This document shows positions 32,826-38,938 of a stretch of 64,000 bases of DNA, one piece after another; positions within the stretch are counted from its first letter, which is position 1, and every line of letters begins with the position of its first letter. Where the stretch lies: positions 62,001-126,000 of the forward strand of contig NZ_QWJJ01000015.1 in the NCBI RefSeq assembly GCF_003575965.1, written 5' to 3'. The notes beneath the pieces were generated by a model. The model had not been told where the DNA came from and did no database searches. It was given only the letters and a program-made list of their open reading frames with translations. The translations under genes and the position numbers were made by a program. Origin of the DNA: Pseudooceanicola sediminis (GTDB lineage Bacteria > Pseudomonadota > Alphaproteobacteria > Rhodobacterales > Rhodobacteraceae).

Positions 32826-34796
32826 ATGCACCGTCCCGCGTTCCGTATCGCAACAATGCAACTGCCGTTTCAGGCGCCTTTGTCGCGGCGTAGATTGCTG
32901 GCACTCGGGGCGCTGACCGCTGCGACTTTTGCCTTTGTCGCGCCGGATGCACGGGCACAGGAAGCCCCGAGCGAGCCGTCCGAGACAACGGAAAGCGCCA
33001 CGGGCGATGAGAAAATCATCAAGAGCCATGGCTACTCCTATTTCGGTGAACTGAAGTACCCGGCCGATTTCGACCATCTGGATTTCGTCAACGTCGATGC
33101 GCCCAAGGGGGGCGATATCGCGATTCAGGCTTCGGGCACGTTCGATTCACTAAACCCTTTCACCGTAAAGGGGCGAGCGGGTGCGCTGGCCTCGACCATG
33201 TACGAAAGCCTGCTGGGCGAGGCGGCGGATGACTACAACGGGTCTTACTGCCTGCTTTGCGAGAGCCTGGAGTATGACGAGGGCAAGACCTGGGTCATCT
33301 TTCACATGCGCAAGGACGCGAAATTTTCCGATGGCACGCCGCTGACGGCACATGATGTCGTGTTTTCGCACAACCTGTTCATTGAACAGGGGCTGCCGTC
33401 GTATTCTGCAGGGGTCAAGAAGCGCGTTCTCGGAGCCGAGGCGCTGGATGACTATACGGTCAAGTTCACCTTTGCGACCGACATATCACGCCGGTCCCTG
33501 ATCGACCAGGTCGGCGCGACAACCGTGTTCAGCAAGAAGTGGTTCGAGGAAACCGGTGCGCGCCTGGATGAACCGCGCTTCGAGACCTCTCCGGGGTCCG
33601 GGCCATACATGCTGGACAGTTACGACGTGAACCGCCGCATCACCTATAAGCGCAACCCCGACTACTGGGGCAAGGATCTGCCGCTCAACAAGGGGCGCTA
33701 TAACTTCGACACGATCCGGGTGGAGTATTTTGCAGACGAATCCGCTGCATTCGAGGCATTCAAGGCGGGCGAATATACGTTCCGCATCGAAACCAGCTCT
33801 CGGCAATGGGCGACGCAATACGATTTTCCCGCAATTCAAGCGGGACATGTTGTCAAGGCAGAGCTGCCTGACGGTATCCCGCCAAATAACGTGGGCTTCG
33901 TCTTCAACCTCGGCCGGGAAAAGTTCAAGGACAAGCGTGTGCGCGAGGCAATTGCGCTGGCATACAATTTCGAGTGGACGAATGAGAGCCTGCAATATGG
34001 CCTGTTCAAGCACCGTGAGAGCTATTTTCAGGATACGCCGCTTCAGGCGAACGGAGTCCCGACAGGCGAAGACCTCGCGTTTCTCGAGGGCCTGGGCGAT
34101 CTGGTGCCGGACGCACTCAAGTCCGAGCCACCCGTTGGGATCCACGTCAGTTCACCCGAACGTCTGAATGATCGTGGAAATCTCCGCAAGGCGATGAAAT
34201 TGCTGGACGATGCCGGTTGGGCCGTTGGCGATGATGGTATCCGCCGGAATGCGCAAGGCGAGGTGCTGTCCATCGATTTCCCGATAAACTCTGCCTCGGC
34301 CAGCTCGCTCGAACCTGTGCTGGACAACTATGCCCTGAACCTGAAAGCGATCGGCATCCGGCCGGATTTTGAAAAGGTCGACCCCAGCCAATATACCAAT
34401 CGCAGTCGCAACCGCGAATACGACATGGTCTATGACGGCTATCGTGCGGGACTGGGGACTGGCACGGGCCTGATGCAGATGTATGGTTCTTCCGAAGCCG
34501 CATTCTCGGTGTTCAATCCGGCGGGGCTGGCCAGTGACCTCGTCGATCAAATCATTCTCGCCTCGCTCGAGACGCAAAGTCAGGAGGAACAGGATGCCTC
34601 CCTGCGCGCTCTCGACCGGGCACTACGGTACGAAATGCTGATGGTTCCAACGTGGTACAAGGCCGGATACTGGGTGGCCTACTACGACATGTTCGAACAT
34701 CCCGACATCCCGCCCTATGACCTCGGCTACCTCGATTTCTGGTGGTACAATGCGGACAAGGCGGCCAAGTTGAAGGCCGCTGGCGCGATGAGGTAA
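32826..34796 (+). CDS. yejA: ABC transporter periplasmic substrate-binding protein YejA
   Basis: 656 residues. An SRRRLLALGALTAATFAF segment looks like a twin-arginine or strong Sec signal, with cleavage near the ARA at about 45. The family 5 (oligopeptide/DppA-like) binding fold follows, with the YejA-type KGGDIAIQASGTFDSLNPF start and PTWYKAGYWVAYYDMFEHP near the C terminus. In enterobacteria YejABEF imports peptides and microcin C. It is first of the yejABEF operon, 9 bp before yejB, with GAGGAG upstream. Confidence 0.93.
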   Translation: MHRPAFRIATMQLPFQAPLSRRRLLALGALTAATFAFVAPDARAQEAPSEPSETTESATGDEKIIKSHGYSYFGELKYPADFDHLDFVNVDAPKGGDIAIQASGTFDSLNPFTVKGRAGALASTMYESLLGEAADDYNGSYCLLCESLEYDEGKTWVIFHMRKDAKFSDGTPLTAHDVVFSHNLFIEQGLPSYSAGVKKRVLGAEALDDYTVKFTFATDISRRSLIDQVGATTVFSKKWFEETGARLDEPRFETSPGSGPYMLDSYDVNRRITYKRNPDYWGKDLPLNKGRYNFDTIRVEYFADESAAFEAFKAGEYTFRIETSSRQWATQYDFPAIQAGHVVKAELPDGIPPNNVGFVFNLGREKFKDKRVREAIALAYNFEWTNESLQYGLFKHRESYFQDTPLQANGVPTGEDLAFLEGLGDLVPDALKSEPPVGIHVSSPERLNDRGNLRKAMKLLDDAGWAVGDDGIRRNAQGEVLSIDFPINSASASSLEPVLDNYALNLKAIGIRPDFEKVDPSQYTNRSRNREYDMVYDGYRAGLGTGTGLMQMYGSSEAAFSVFNPAGLASDLVDQIILASLETQSQEEQDASLRALDRALRYEMLMVPTWYKAGYWVAYYDMFEHPDIPPYDLGYLDFWWYNADKAAKLKAAGAMR

Positions 34797-34805
34797 ACCA
34801 GCCAG

Positions 34806-35891
34806 ATGGGAGCCTACATTCTTCGCCGCCTGCTGTTGGTCATACCGACGCTTCTGGGCATGATGATCATCAACTTCACGCTGACGCAGTTCGTGCCTGG
34901 CGGGCCGATCGAGCAGATCATCGCTCAGGTGCAGGGGCAGGGCGATGTCACGGCTGGATTTACCGGTGGTGGCGGAGATGCCGCCGATATGCTGGGCTCG
35001 AACGATTCCGCCTATGCGGGCGCGCGTGGGCTGCCGCCTGAATTCATTGAAAAGCTGGAAAAGGAATTCGGCTTTGACAAGCCGCCGCTTGAACGGTTCG
35101 GCCTGATGCTTTGGAACTACGTGCGGCTGGATTTCGGGGACAGTTATTTCCGCTCGGTCAGTGTCATTGACCTGGTCCTGGAAAAAATGCCGGTGTCGAT
35201 CACCCTCGGTCTCTGGTCGACGCTGATTGCCTATCTGGTGTCGATCCCGCTGGGTATTCGCAAGGCGGTCAAGGACGGCTCCAGCTTTGACAACTGGACA
35301 TCGGGCGTCATCATCGTGGCCTATGCGATCCCCGGGTTTCTGGTCGCGATCCTGTTGCTGGTGCTGTTCGCCGGTGGGTCCTACTGGCAGTTCTTTCCCT
35401 TGCGCGGCCTTACGTCGGACAATTTCAACCAGTTGTCATGGGCCGGCAAGGCGTTGGATTACCTTTGGCACATCGCGCTGCCGGTCCTTGCCTCGACCAT
35501 CTCGGCTTTCGCCACCCTGACGCTGCTGACCAAGAATTCGTTCCTGGACGAGATCAAGAAGCAATACGTCATGACCGCGCGGGCAAAGGGGCAAAGCGAA
35601 CGCCGTGTTCTGTACGGTCACGTGTTCCGCAACGCCATGCTGATCGTGATTGCGGGATTCCCGGGTGTTTTCATCAGCGTGTTCTTCGCCGGAAGCCTGA
35701 TTATCGAAACGATCTTTTCTCTCGATGGTCTCGGACGGCTTGGATTCGAGGCCGCGGTGGCGCGCGACTACCCGGTGATCTTCGGCACGCTGTTCATTTT
35801 CGGGCTCATGCAACTGGTCGTGGGGATCGTGTCCGATCTGATGTATGTCTTCGTCGATCCGCGTATCGACTTCGAAAAGCGCGAGGGCTAG
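34806..35891 (+). CDS. yejB: ABC transporter permease YejB
   Basis: 361 residues with six predicted membrane helices, the first at the N terminus ([24 protein letters not shown]). A periplasmic region (about 35-100) follows, typical of DppB-type permeases. The cytoplasmic EAA loop that contacts the ATPase is near [22 protein letters not shown]. It pairs with YejE to form the inner-membrane channel. The next gene begins 3 bp after its stop. Confidence 0.94.
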
Positions 35892-35894
35892 GCC

Positions 35895-37085
35895 ATGACA
35901 GACCCGATGCAGCCTGAAACCGCGCCACCCCGCATTCCCGGCCACGATGCGCCCGCTCCGGTGCCCGACGCCCCGAAACGCTGGCTTTCGCCGCTGAACC
36001 AGCGCCGGTGGCGAAACTTTCGCCGCAACCGTCGCGCATTCTGGTCGCTGATCGTCTTTGCGGTGTTGTTCGGTATTTCGCTGTTTGCAGAATTCGTCGC
36101 GAACGACAAACCGATCCTCGTCAATTATCGGGGCGAATATTACATGCCGATCTTCCGGTTCTACCCCGAGACGGCCTTTGGCGGCGACTTCAAGACCGAG
36201 GCGATCTATCGCGACCCCGAGGTGCAATGCCTTATTCACAGCGGTGGTCTGGATAGTTGTTTCGACGATCCCGAAGGGGTCATGGCAGATGCCGAGGATG
36301 GCGTCGTCGATGGCGAGGCGATCGAAAACGGCTGGTCGATCTGGCCACCGATCCCCTATTCCTATGACAGCCCCGTGGACCGACCGGGTGCGGCCCCGTT
36401 GCCGCCCAGTGCGGAAAACCTGCTCGGAACGGACGATACGAAACGCGATGTACTTGCACGGGTGATTTATGGTTTTCGCCTGTCGATCCTGTTCACCCTG
36501 ATCGTGACCGCGCTGTCGTCTTTGATCGGCATTGTTGCCGGCGCGGTTCAGGGCTTTTTCGGCGGTTGGGTCGACCTGCTGTTCCAGCGCATTATCGAGG
36601 TCTGGTCCTCCACACCCTCTCTCTATGTCATCATCATCCTGTTCGCGATTTTGGGACGCGGGTTCTGGCTGCTTGTCGGGTTGACCGTGCTGTTTGGCTG
36701 GATGGCCCTTGTGGGAGTCGTGCGCGCTGAATTCCTGCGGGCTCGCAACCTGGAATACGTGCGTGCGGCCAAGGCGCTTGGGGTGTCGAACCGCACCATC
36801 ATGTTCCGCCACATGCTGCCCAATGCCATGGTCGCGACCCTGACCATGATGCCCTTCATTGTCACCGGCACCATCTCGACGCTTGCCGGGCTCGACTTCC
36901 TCGGGTTCGGGCTCCCGTCGTCCTCGCCATCGCTGGGCGAGTTGACGTTGCAGGCCAAGGAAAATCTGCAGGCGCCTTGGCTGGCATTCACGTCCTTCAT
37001 CGTGTTCGCCTTGATGCTGTCGCTGCTGGTCTTCATCTTTGAAGGGGTGCGCGATGCCTTCGACCCCAGAAAGACGTTTCAATGA
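35895..37085 (+). CDS. yejE: ABC transporter permease YejE
   Basis: 396 residues. A long cytoplasmic Pro-rich N terminus precedes TM1 (about 54-72), followed by a large periplasmic insert (about 75-180) characteristic of YejE. Five more helices complete the DppC-type core. The EAA loop (YVRAAKALGVSNRTIMFRHMLPNA) lies near 287-310. It overlaps yejF by 4 bp (ATGA), indicating translational coupling. Confidence 0.94.
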   Translation: MTDPMQPETAPPRIPGHDAPAPVPDAPKRWLSPLNQRRWRNFRRNRRAFWSLIVFAVLFGISLFAEFVANDKPILVNYRGEYYMPIFRFYPETAFGGDFKTEAIYRDPEVQCLIHSGGLDSCFDDPEGVMADAEDGVVDGEAIENGWSIWPPIPYSYDSPVDRPGAAPLPPSAENLLGTDDTKRDVLARVIYGFRLSILFTLIVTALSSLIGIVAGAVQGFFGGWVDLLFQRIIEVWSSTPSLYVIIILFAILGRGFWLLVGLTVLFGWMALVGVVRAEFLRARNLEYVRAAKALGVSNRTIMFRHMLPNAMVATLTMMPFIVTGTISTLAGLDFLGFGLPSSSPSLGELTLQAKENLQAPWLAFTSFIVFALMLSLLVFIFEGVRDAFDPRKTFQ

Positions 37086-38938
37086 GCATACTTGAGGTCC
37101 GCGACCTGCGCATCGCGTTCCGCCAGGACGGCCAGAGGCACGAGGCCGTGAAGGGCGTCAGCTTTTCCGTCGACCGTGGCGAAACCGTGGCCTTGGTGGG
37201 AGAGTCGGGGTCGGGAAAATCCGTGACGGCCATGTCCACAGTCGCCTTGCTGGGGGACAACGCCGAGGTTTCGGGCAGTGCGACCTTTGATGGGCAAGAG
37301 ATGATCGGCGCCGATGCCCAGCTGCTGCGCAAGGTGCGCGGCAATGACATCAGCTTCATCTTTCAGGAGCCGATGACATCGCTCAACCCGTTGCACACCA
37401 TCGAAAAGCAGCTGGCTGAATCCATGGCGCTACACCAGGGGCTGAAGGGGCGCGGCAGGGGCAAGCGGTTCCTCGAAGGCTGGATGAACTTCACGCCTCT
37501 GCCGTTCTTCATCGGCGTCGCGGTCTTTCTGGTGGCACTGGCGGCCTATGCCAGTTTCGTGTCCACCGCGCCGAGCGAACCGAGCCTGGCTTTCCTGCCG
37601 GCATTCGGCGCTGATCTATTGCCGGGGGTGCTTGTTGCGATGGGGTGGGCGGCGGGGCTGACCGCGGTGCTCTGGGCCGGGAAATACCTGCTGGCGTCGC
37701 GCCTGCGCACGTGGATCATCACCTCCGAGACGCGCGAACGTTCTATCGCATTGCTGAACCAGGTCGGTATCCGCGATGCGGAATCCCGCCTGACCGCTTA
37801 TCCTCATGAACTTTCCGGCGGACAGCGTCAGCGCGTCATGATTGCCATGGCCCTGGCCAACCGGCCGGGCCTGCTGATTGCCGATGAACCGACAACCGCG
37901 CTCGACGTGACGATCCAGGCGCAGATCCTGGAACTGCTGGCCGAGCTCAAGGATCACAACTCCATGGGGTTGCTGTTCATCACGCATGATCTTGGAATCG
38001 TGCGCCGCATCGCCGACCGCGTCTGCGTCATGAAGGATGGGGAGATCGTCGAAACAGGCCCGACAGACCAGATTTTTGCCAACCCGCAGCACCCCTATAC
38101 ACAGATGCTGCTGTCTGCCGCTGCCACAGGCGCCCCCCAGGCCGCGGCGACGGATGCGCCTGCCGTGCTCGAGGCCGAAAACCTGCGCATCTGGTTTCCG
38201 ATCAAGGCGGGCCTGATGAAGCGCACGGTCGGGTACGTAAAGGCGGTCAACGACGCCACGCTGACCGTTCATGCCGGTGAAACCCTAGGGGTCATCGGGG
38301 AATCCGGGTCAGGCAAATCGACGTTGGCCATGGCCCTGATGCGGTTGATCGGGTCCGAGGGGCAGATCCGATTTGAAGGTCAGGACATCCGTCAGTGGTC
38401 CACCGGGCAGCTACGTCATCTGCGCAAGGATATGCAGATCGTCTTTCAGGATCCCTTTGGCTCCCTCAGCCCTCGGATGACGTGCGAACAGATCATCGCC
38501 GAGGGGCTGTCGATCCACAAGATCGGGGATGGTCGTCCGCAGCGTGATCTGGTCGCCGAAGTGATGCGCGAAGTCGGGCTGGATCCGGCAGCGATGCATC
38601 GCTATCCGCACGAGTTTTCCGGCGGGCAGCGGCAACGCATTGCTATCGCCCGCGCAATGATCCTGCGGCCCAAGCTGGTGGTGCTGGACGAACCCACGTC
38701 GGCGCTGGATATGACGGTGCAGGTGCAGATCGTCGATTTGCTGCGCGATTTGCAGCAGAAATACGGTCTGGCATATGTCTTTATCAGCCATGATCTGAAA
38801 GTTGTGCGCGCCATGTCGCACCGGGTGATGGTGATGCGGCAAGGTGACGTGGTGGAAAGCGGCACGGCGGCGCAGGTGTTTGATGCCCCGCAGGCTGCCT
38901 ATACCCAGGATCTTTTTGCCGCCGCGTTGGATCGCTGA
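37082..38938 (+). CDS. yejF: ABC transporter ATP-binding protein YejF with membrane-helix insert
   Basis: 618 residues, against about 529 in E. coli YejF. It has two tandem ATPase domains. In the first, Walker A is at 40-47, the Q-loop glutamine at 95, the signature LSGGQ at 244-248 and Walker B LLIADEP at 264-270. The second begins near 366, with its own GESGSGKS and FSGGQ. Between the Q-loop and signature of domain 1, residues about 123-218 form an extra segment with two strongly hydrophobic stretches (about 141-160 and 178-205). The reading frame is intact and both ATPase motif sets are complete, so the insert is not obviously damaging. Confidence 0.93.

Follow-up and report, generated by a model that had tools for sequence, protein, structure and literature searches.

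YejF, the ATP-binding subunit encoded in the 64,000-nucleotide stretch of Pseudooceanicola sediminis DNA analysed here (the window), carries a net insertion of 91 residues in a loop of the helical subdomain of its first nucleotide-binding domain (NBD1), and the inserted residues are predicted to form a membrane hairpin. The insertion spans residues ~124–214 (37451–37723, + strand; ends approximate), and separates the helix that follows the Q-loop from the one preceding the signature, helix names that we take from the known ABC ATPase fold and assume to apply here. The reading that we favour, and consider likely, is that of a transmembrane hairpin with both ends in the cytoplasm that anchors NBD1 next to YejB in the inner membrane and keeps the ATPase docked on the coupling helix; the membrane crossing, the packing beside YejB and the docking role are the parts that we infer.

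The operon, in the order yejA-yejB-yejE-yejF, is intact in the window and lies on the + strand. It comprises a yejA-like gene for a periplasmic binding protein (32826–34796; an open reading frame with binding-protein family matches that are all below cut-off, called yejA by position and relatives), the permease genes yejB (34806–35891) and yejE (35895–37085), each product having six hydrophobic peaks, and directly after them yejF (37082–38938), the start of which is overlapped by the 3′ end of yejE by four bases. All four genes are on one strand in 20/20 other regions of the genus that span them fully (the yejF of genome G003 being in two frames). YejABEF is an importer of peptides, microcin C and, together with YepA, muropeptides. 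The best NCBIfam match of the window YejF, in two stretches, is the equivalog YejF (PRK15134), with 710 bits against a curated cut-off of 834, a score obtained for the window YejF alone. With the YejF of YejABEF it has in common the yejABEF operon, two nucleotide-binding domains, the ATPase motifs and the permease subunits of the family, but it differs by the 91 additional residues of the predicted hairpin in NBD1. Its nearest homologues are YejF proteins encoded in this type of operon: identity to eight other insert-bearing YejF of the genus is 77–93%, and to the best paralogue in its own genome at most 50% over full-length rows. An insert-free subgroup of the genus (G002, G006, G009, G013, G015 and G020) has a YejE of 417–420 residues, compared with 368–403 in other genus genomes, and its YejE alignment breaks near residues 155–181.

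The open reading frame bears out the 618 residues, Q95 and L244-S-G-G-Q248 read from the sequence in an earlier note, and the ~529 residues quoted there for E. coli YejF agree with the length of the NCBIfam model (529). Its statement that the ATPase motifs of both domains are intact also holds, since in a 95-sequence alignment they are invariant in NBD1 (Walker A G40–S47, Q-loop Q95, signature S245–Q248, Walker B D268/E269, H-loop H302) and in NBD2 (Walker A G406–K412, Q-loop Q456, signature S513–Q516, Walker B D536/E537, H-loop H570). What sets the protein apart is the NBD1 spacing between Q-loop (QEPM) and LSGGQ signature, which is 149 residues in the window YejF and 58 in relatives. This spacing was read at 112 loci, 99 of them from insert-free genomes (one locus per genome, 12 within the genus and 87 in the family's other genera), and is exactly 58 in 99/99 of these insert-free relatives; at locus L049 the 58 was read by eye, the script having misread it because the first signature begins MSGGQ. 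In a class-level set of 30 loci, the window's own gave 149, 25 others gave 58 (two of them family members, one already among the 99) and four were not parsed by the motif search. Among the best 11 of 150 own-genome matches, the paralogues gave 16 spacings of 55–58 residues, with one of the eleven giving none, and no hydrophobic run above 1.14. The earlier note had placed an extra segment of ~95 residues at 37448–37736 (residues 123–218); the insertion is real, and its true excess is 91. That note would have given up a membrane interpretation had homologues of the same length lacked the hydrophobic runs, and the 99 run-free homologues are 91 residues shorter at this place.

The two hydrophobic runs that had been noted stand out clearly as 19-residue windows at residues 142–160 and 179–197. 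Helix 1 has a Kyte–Doolittle mean of 2.45 (142–160), with a best overlapping Wimley–White window at 134–152 (sum 11.1), and helix 2 a mean of 1.91 (179–197), with a Wimley–White window at 180–198 (sum 5.4). The next best Kyte–Doolittle window of the protein reaches 0.95; the best windows of the 99 insert-free YejF average 1.19 with a maximum of 1.65, which both insert helices exceed; and the 12 strong helices of the permeases YejB and YejE span 1.42–2.89, a range that includes both. Helix 2 is the weaker on two scales, barely above the highest insert-free YejF value on the Wimley–White scale (5.4 versus 5.3) and at +1.9 on the biological scale. Two hydrophobic spans of at least ~19 residues are present in all nine inserts of the insert profile (A3), the second being weak in one of the nine rows (G001, Kyte–Doolittle 1.26). 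Charged residues occupy 1/171 alignment cells of helix 1 (residues 142–160, nine sequences) and 5/162 of helix 2, and 7/10 carriers have one Lys or Arg inside the 19-residue window of helix 2. The charges around the runs follow a positive-inside pattern: the N-flank has 4–6 Lys/Arg against 1 Asp/Glu in 10/10 carriers measured, the middle loop is neutral or acidic in 10/10, and the C-flank is mixed but mostly positive (net positive in seven of ten carriers, neutral in two and negative in one). Taken together, hydropathy and charge are the pattern of a predicted hairpin with both ends cytoplasmic.

Five elements can be distinguished in the insert, all on the + strand. A basic amphipathic connector, possibly an interfacial helix (residues 126–138, 37457–37495; hydrophobic moment 0.60 over residues 126–137), is followed by the first predicted transmembrane helix (141–160, 37502–37561), a middle loop of variable length that is predicted to be periplasmic (161–178, 37562–37615), the second predicted transmembrane helix (179–200, 37616–37681), with a conserved face of W189, G192, L193, T194 and L197, and a mostly basic connector with conserved residues to the next NBD1 helix (201–214, 37682–37723). 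In a test for conserved faces, helix 2 gave p=0.011, the connector p=0.018 and helix 1, which perhaps has one, p=0.069. L197, L204 and W211 recur at seven-residue spacing across helix 2 and the C-terminal connector, compatible with one continuous helix leading into the nucleotide-binding domain. According to the favoured reading, the hairpin would interrupt a loop on the surface of the NBD1 helical subdomain; the basic amphipathic connector would lead into helix 1, a short periplasmic loop would separate it from helix 2, and helix 2 would return to the cytoplasm and continue through its connector into the next NBD1 helix. Connectors of ~14–20 residues could reach the bilayer, and a tethered NBD1 might favour docking on the coupling helix or assembly.

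An alternative interpretation is that the hairpin does not cross the membrane and forms a re-entrant or interfacial helix pair, or a docking clamp on the lower ends of the YejB helices. The amphipathic connector and the weaker helix 2 would suit an interfacial arrangement, and conserved faces on helix 2 and perhaps helix 1 are what protein contacts would be expected to leave, but we consider this interpretation unlikely because both runs are long enough to span a membrane and are nearly free of charge. The middle loop also argues for crossing: it has ~18–25 residues in carriers of the genus, whereas that of the distant genome G026 has ~71, of which 8 are basic and 11 acidic, a length and composition easier to picture as an exposed loop. 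The same loop could itself be the working part, contacting a binding protein (YejA or YepA) or the periplasmic side of YejB, with the helices as mere carriers; the conserved residues A163, P164, P167 and S168 and the much longer loop of G026 point that way, but in the genus carriers only these ~18–25 residues are available and they are otherwise variable, and we regard a working loop as improbable.

The source of the hairpin was also sought among known folds. Light-harvesting LH1 alpha chains are the best PDB matches of the insert profile (E 0.0077), the best score exceeds the top of 300 local column shuffles (14.3 versus 11.7 bits), and the profile comparison gives a probability of 36.4%. Descent from an antenna alpha chain was nevertheless dropped after a control with 12 unrelated permease helices, of which one, the last of YejE, scores alike against LH1 alpha (36.2%), and we consider such a descent very improbable: none of the nine inserts matches Pfam LHC (PF00556) up to E 10, an LH1 profile has no match in the insert's own genome up to E 10, 23/23 genus genomes have no LHC match, and the insert rows lack the ligand His. 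Insert helix 1 (37480–37590) does show an LH1 alpha-like pattern, with a W near a Pro followed by a hydrophobic run.

With the insert and short flanks as query, 11/101 related genomes match, namely 10/23 of the genus and G026, which belongs to another genus. The yejE of the operon is present in 22/23 genus genomes, of which 10/22 carry the insert and 12/22 the 58-residue form. A search of named genomes returned 43 candidate stretches, seven of which were confirmed (two strains of P. marinus, P. antarcticus, P. spongiae, P. endophyticus, Oceanicola sp. S124 and a Rhodobacteraceae MAG); these correspond to seven of the same-genus loci. The draft assembly of Oceanicola sp. S124 (G003; L133/L138) differs by one base in a short homopolymer within the insert, which breaks the reading frame of yejF there; the copy of a close relative is intact, and a sequencing error is the likely cause, although the break is possibly real. 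A search with profile A3, in which the G026 sequence is included, covered overlapping draws of 385 class-level, 394 family-level and 254 order-level genomes holding few members of the genus, and apart from the window's own insert (all three draws) and G026 (family draw) it returned only weak matches to unrelated frames. Matches in G411, G132, G799 and G839 that could have indicated a wider spread are in other reading frames, not YejF, and G132's own YejF (L054) has the normal 58-residue spacing.

A tree of YejB and YejE, built blind to the trait, unites the ten genus carriers in one clade (100/99) that is sister to the insert-free G011 (joint branch 94/85), with G026 far from the carriers on a long branch. 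A quick tree of YejF without the insert region likewise places nine genus carriers (G003 left out) on one branch (support 95) and groups G026 with those other families of the class that were sampled (support 94). In the YejF tree, L111, the YejF of G226, also sits on a long branch; it is strongly diverged and has an odd amino-acid make-up. The insertion is derived, and most simply it was gained once at the base of the carrier clade. The alignment of homologues proposed to place the insert thus locates it in one Pseudooceanicola clade plus G026, and the choice left by the earlier note between a membrane anchor and a lineage marker resolves into something of each, with one clade and one distant genome carrying what is still a predicted anchor.

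How G026 came by its insert is a separate matter. A profile made from the genus inserts alone scores 29.6 bits against the G026 insert, whereas the highest score from 2000 locally shuffled copies (1991 of them reported) is 14.4, and by this measure the G026 insert looks homologous, beyond a similarity in kind. It is 50 residues longer, nearly all of them in the middle loop. Our preferred guess is that a gene segment was transferred, giving the two distant lineages the insert in common, since an ancestral insert would have to have been lost tracelessly in the 87 genomes of other family genera that were read. Direct signs of a mobile origin were lacking in the searches made: there was no tblastn match in 72,556 plasmid records, none of 37 candidate stretches in viral contigs was confirmed, and no exact direct repeat of 7–14 bases links 37400–37470 with 37700–37780. 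Across the ten carriers compared, the insert matches the remainder of yejF in G+C content or slightly exceeds it. The G026 YejF (L037) has in addition a smaller insertion, moderately hydrophobic in part, at residues ~486–521, in NBD2 before the Q-loop, that has no counterpart in the window YejF.

The insert is under purifying selection and is less constrained than the ATPase core. In 28 pairs drawn from eight carriers (G001 was excluded because of a one-codon gap, G003 because its frame is broken and G026 because it is distant), dN/dS was 0.19–0.79 for the insert stretch (98 codons) and 0.013–0.27 for the rest of the gene, with synonymous sites near saturation in several pairs; the insert sequence thus changes faster than the rest of YejF while its hydrophobic character is kept. 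The higher ratio in the insert, the insert-free YejF of 12/22 genus genomes with the locus and the frame break in one draft genome would all suit a neutral insertion specific to this clade, in which a permissive surface loop tolerates a hydrophobic hairpin that has no useful role. We think this distinctly unlikely, since dN/dS is below 1 in 28/28 pairs, residues such as W134, Y156, G192, T194 and W211 are conserved in the insert, and the insert is kept in 10/10 genomes of the clade (one of them frame-broken).

The site of the insertion lies beside the contact between ATPase and permease. K106 of MalK, in the equivalent loop, is presumably close to the permease. In E. coli DppABCDF, the coupling helix of DppB contacts DppD by hydrogen bonds and a K243–E114 salt bridge, as described in the available part of PMC12136057. 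DppD and OppD of solved importers (8z1v, 8j5q, 8wd9) are related in sequence to YejF and have the same coupling-helix contact residue by alignment, and the alignment makes YejF E113 the counterpart of DppD E114 and YejB K261 that of DppB K243. The insert starts 9–11 residues after E113. Two positions past each contact residue stands a carrier-specific one, M115 in YejF (E113 and M115, 37418–37426, + strand) and Q263 in the YejB coupling helix (K261 and Q263, 35586–35594, + strand): Q263 is present in 10/10 genus carriers and 0/19 non-carriers of the YejB alignment, and M115 in 9/9 aligned carriers and ~1% of 118 non-carrier rows (some genomes appearing twice), with Leu in most insert-free YejF. 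There are four carrier-specific changes in YejB, two in YejE and eight in YejF. The other three in YejB lie at residues 49–53, two of them common to G026; of the eight in YejF, five fall in a 58-column stretch around the insert (two or three at the junction) and three in NBD2, and two are common to G026. We caution that a tie between the insert and the changes on both sides of the contact is suggestive only, and the clade would carry such changes by descent anyway; moreover, the insert does not need M115 or Q263, because G026 has the insert with Leu at both positions and neither contact change.

There was no sign that a permease helix had been lost in compensation for the hairpin: YejB has six hydrophobic peaks in 10/10 genus carriers. 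In YejE, every non-carrier measured, G026 and three of the ten genus carriers show five such peaks, and the remaining 7/10 carriers show six. The sixth probably corresponds to the stretch 265–283, which just exceeds the threshold and contains the carrier-specific M270. YejE residue 270 (36702–36704), before the YejE coupling loop, is Met in carriers and in G327 and Thr or Pro in the other non-carriers shown.

Since the helical subdomain rotates by ~20 degrees between states in E. coli DppABCDF (PMC12136057, available part), it is conceivable that the hairpin is a second coupling path, in which a rigid join through a continuous helix 2 would send the stroke directly to the bilayer or to the membrane helices of YejB, in addition to the route through the classical coupling helix. 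We consider this function rather unlikely. The anchor that we favour agrees with the hydrophobicity, the charge pattern, the conserved hydrophobic character of the insert and its site beside the coupling-helix contact, and to this extent the membrane-anchor reading of the earlier note holds up, with the crossing itself still a prediction from sequence.

To our knowledge, the ATPases of importers are generally treated as soluble proteins that meet the membrane only through the coupling helices of the permease. ABCG- and MacB-type proteins hold an ATPase and membrane helices in one chain, but as whole permease domains joined at a terminus, without a hairpin inside the nucleotide-binding domain. 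Rad50/SMC coiled coils and the inserted domains of UvrA are large insertions between the halves of an ABC ATPase head that are soluble, bind DNA and have no membrane helices. The arm of ABC-F proteins is helical and lies between Q-loop and signature. In M. tuberculosis EttA the arm domain comprises residues 94–136, with NBD1 made of 2–93 and 137–240 (PMC8782954), so that arm and YejF hairpin are both insertions inside NBD1, but according to the available part of that paper the arm contacts the ribosomal L1 stalk and not the membrane, unlike the predicted YejF hairpin. Among nearer relatives, Rv1281c, M. tuberculosis DppD and E. coli DppD have no more than one extra residue at the insertion site and are otherwise continuous there; M. 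tuberculosis OppD carries an iron–sulfur domain (PMC12136057, available part). Titles and abstract openings of the open-licence literature contained no description of such an ATPase membrane hairpin, and the accessible part of PMC8406287 held nothing on YejF domain terms; this is weak evidence of novelty because it covers open-licence papers only.

If the favoured reading is true, a conserved membrane hairpin inside the moving subdomain breaks the rule that these ATPases are soluble and offers a natural test of whether tethering an ATPase changes coupling, for which sister species with and without the hairpin give a clean comparison. Were the hairpin a second coupling path, its presence in a distant lineage as well would imply that the module can pass from one transporter to another. 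In Agrobacterium, cell-wall recycling runs through YejBEF with YepA instead of AmpG, and the authors of that work report YepA to be widespread in Rhodobacterales and suggest the same role there (PMC9790009); because of this role, the change seen in Pseudooceanicola may sit in a physiologically important machine.
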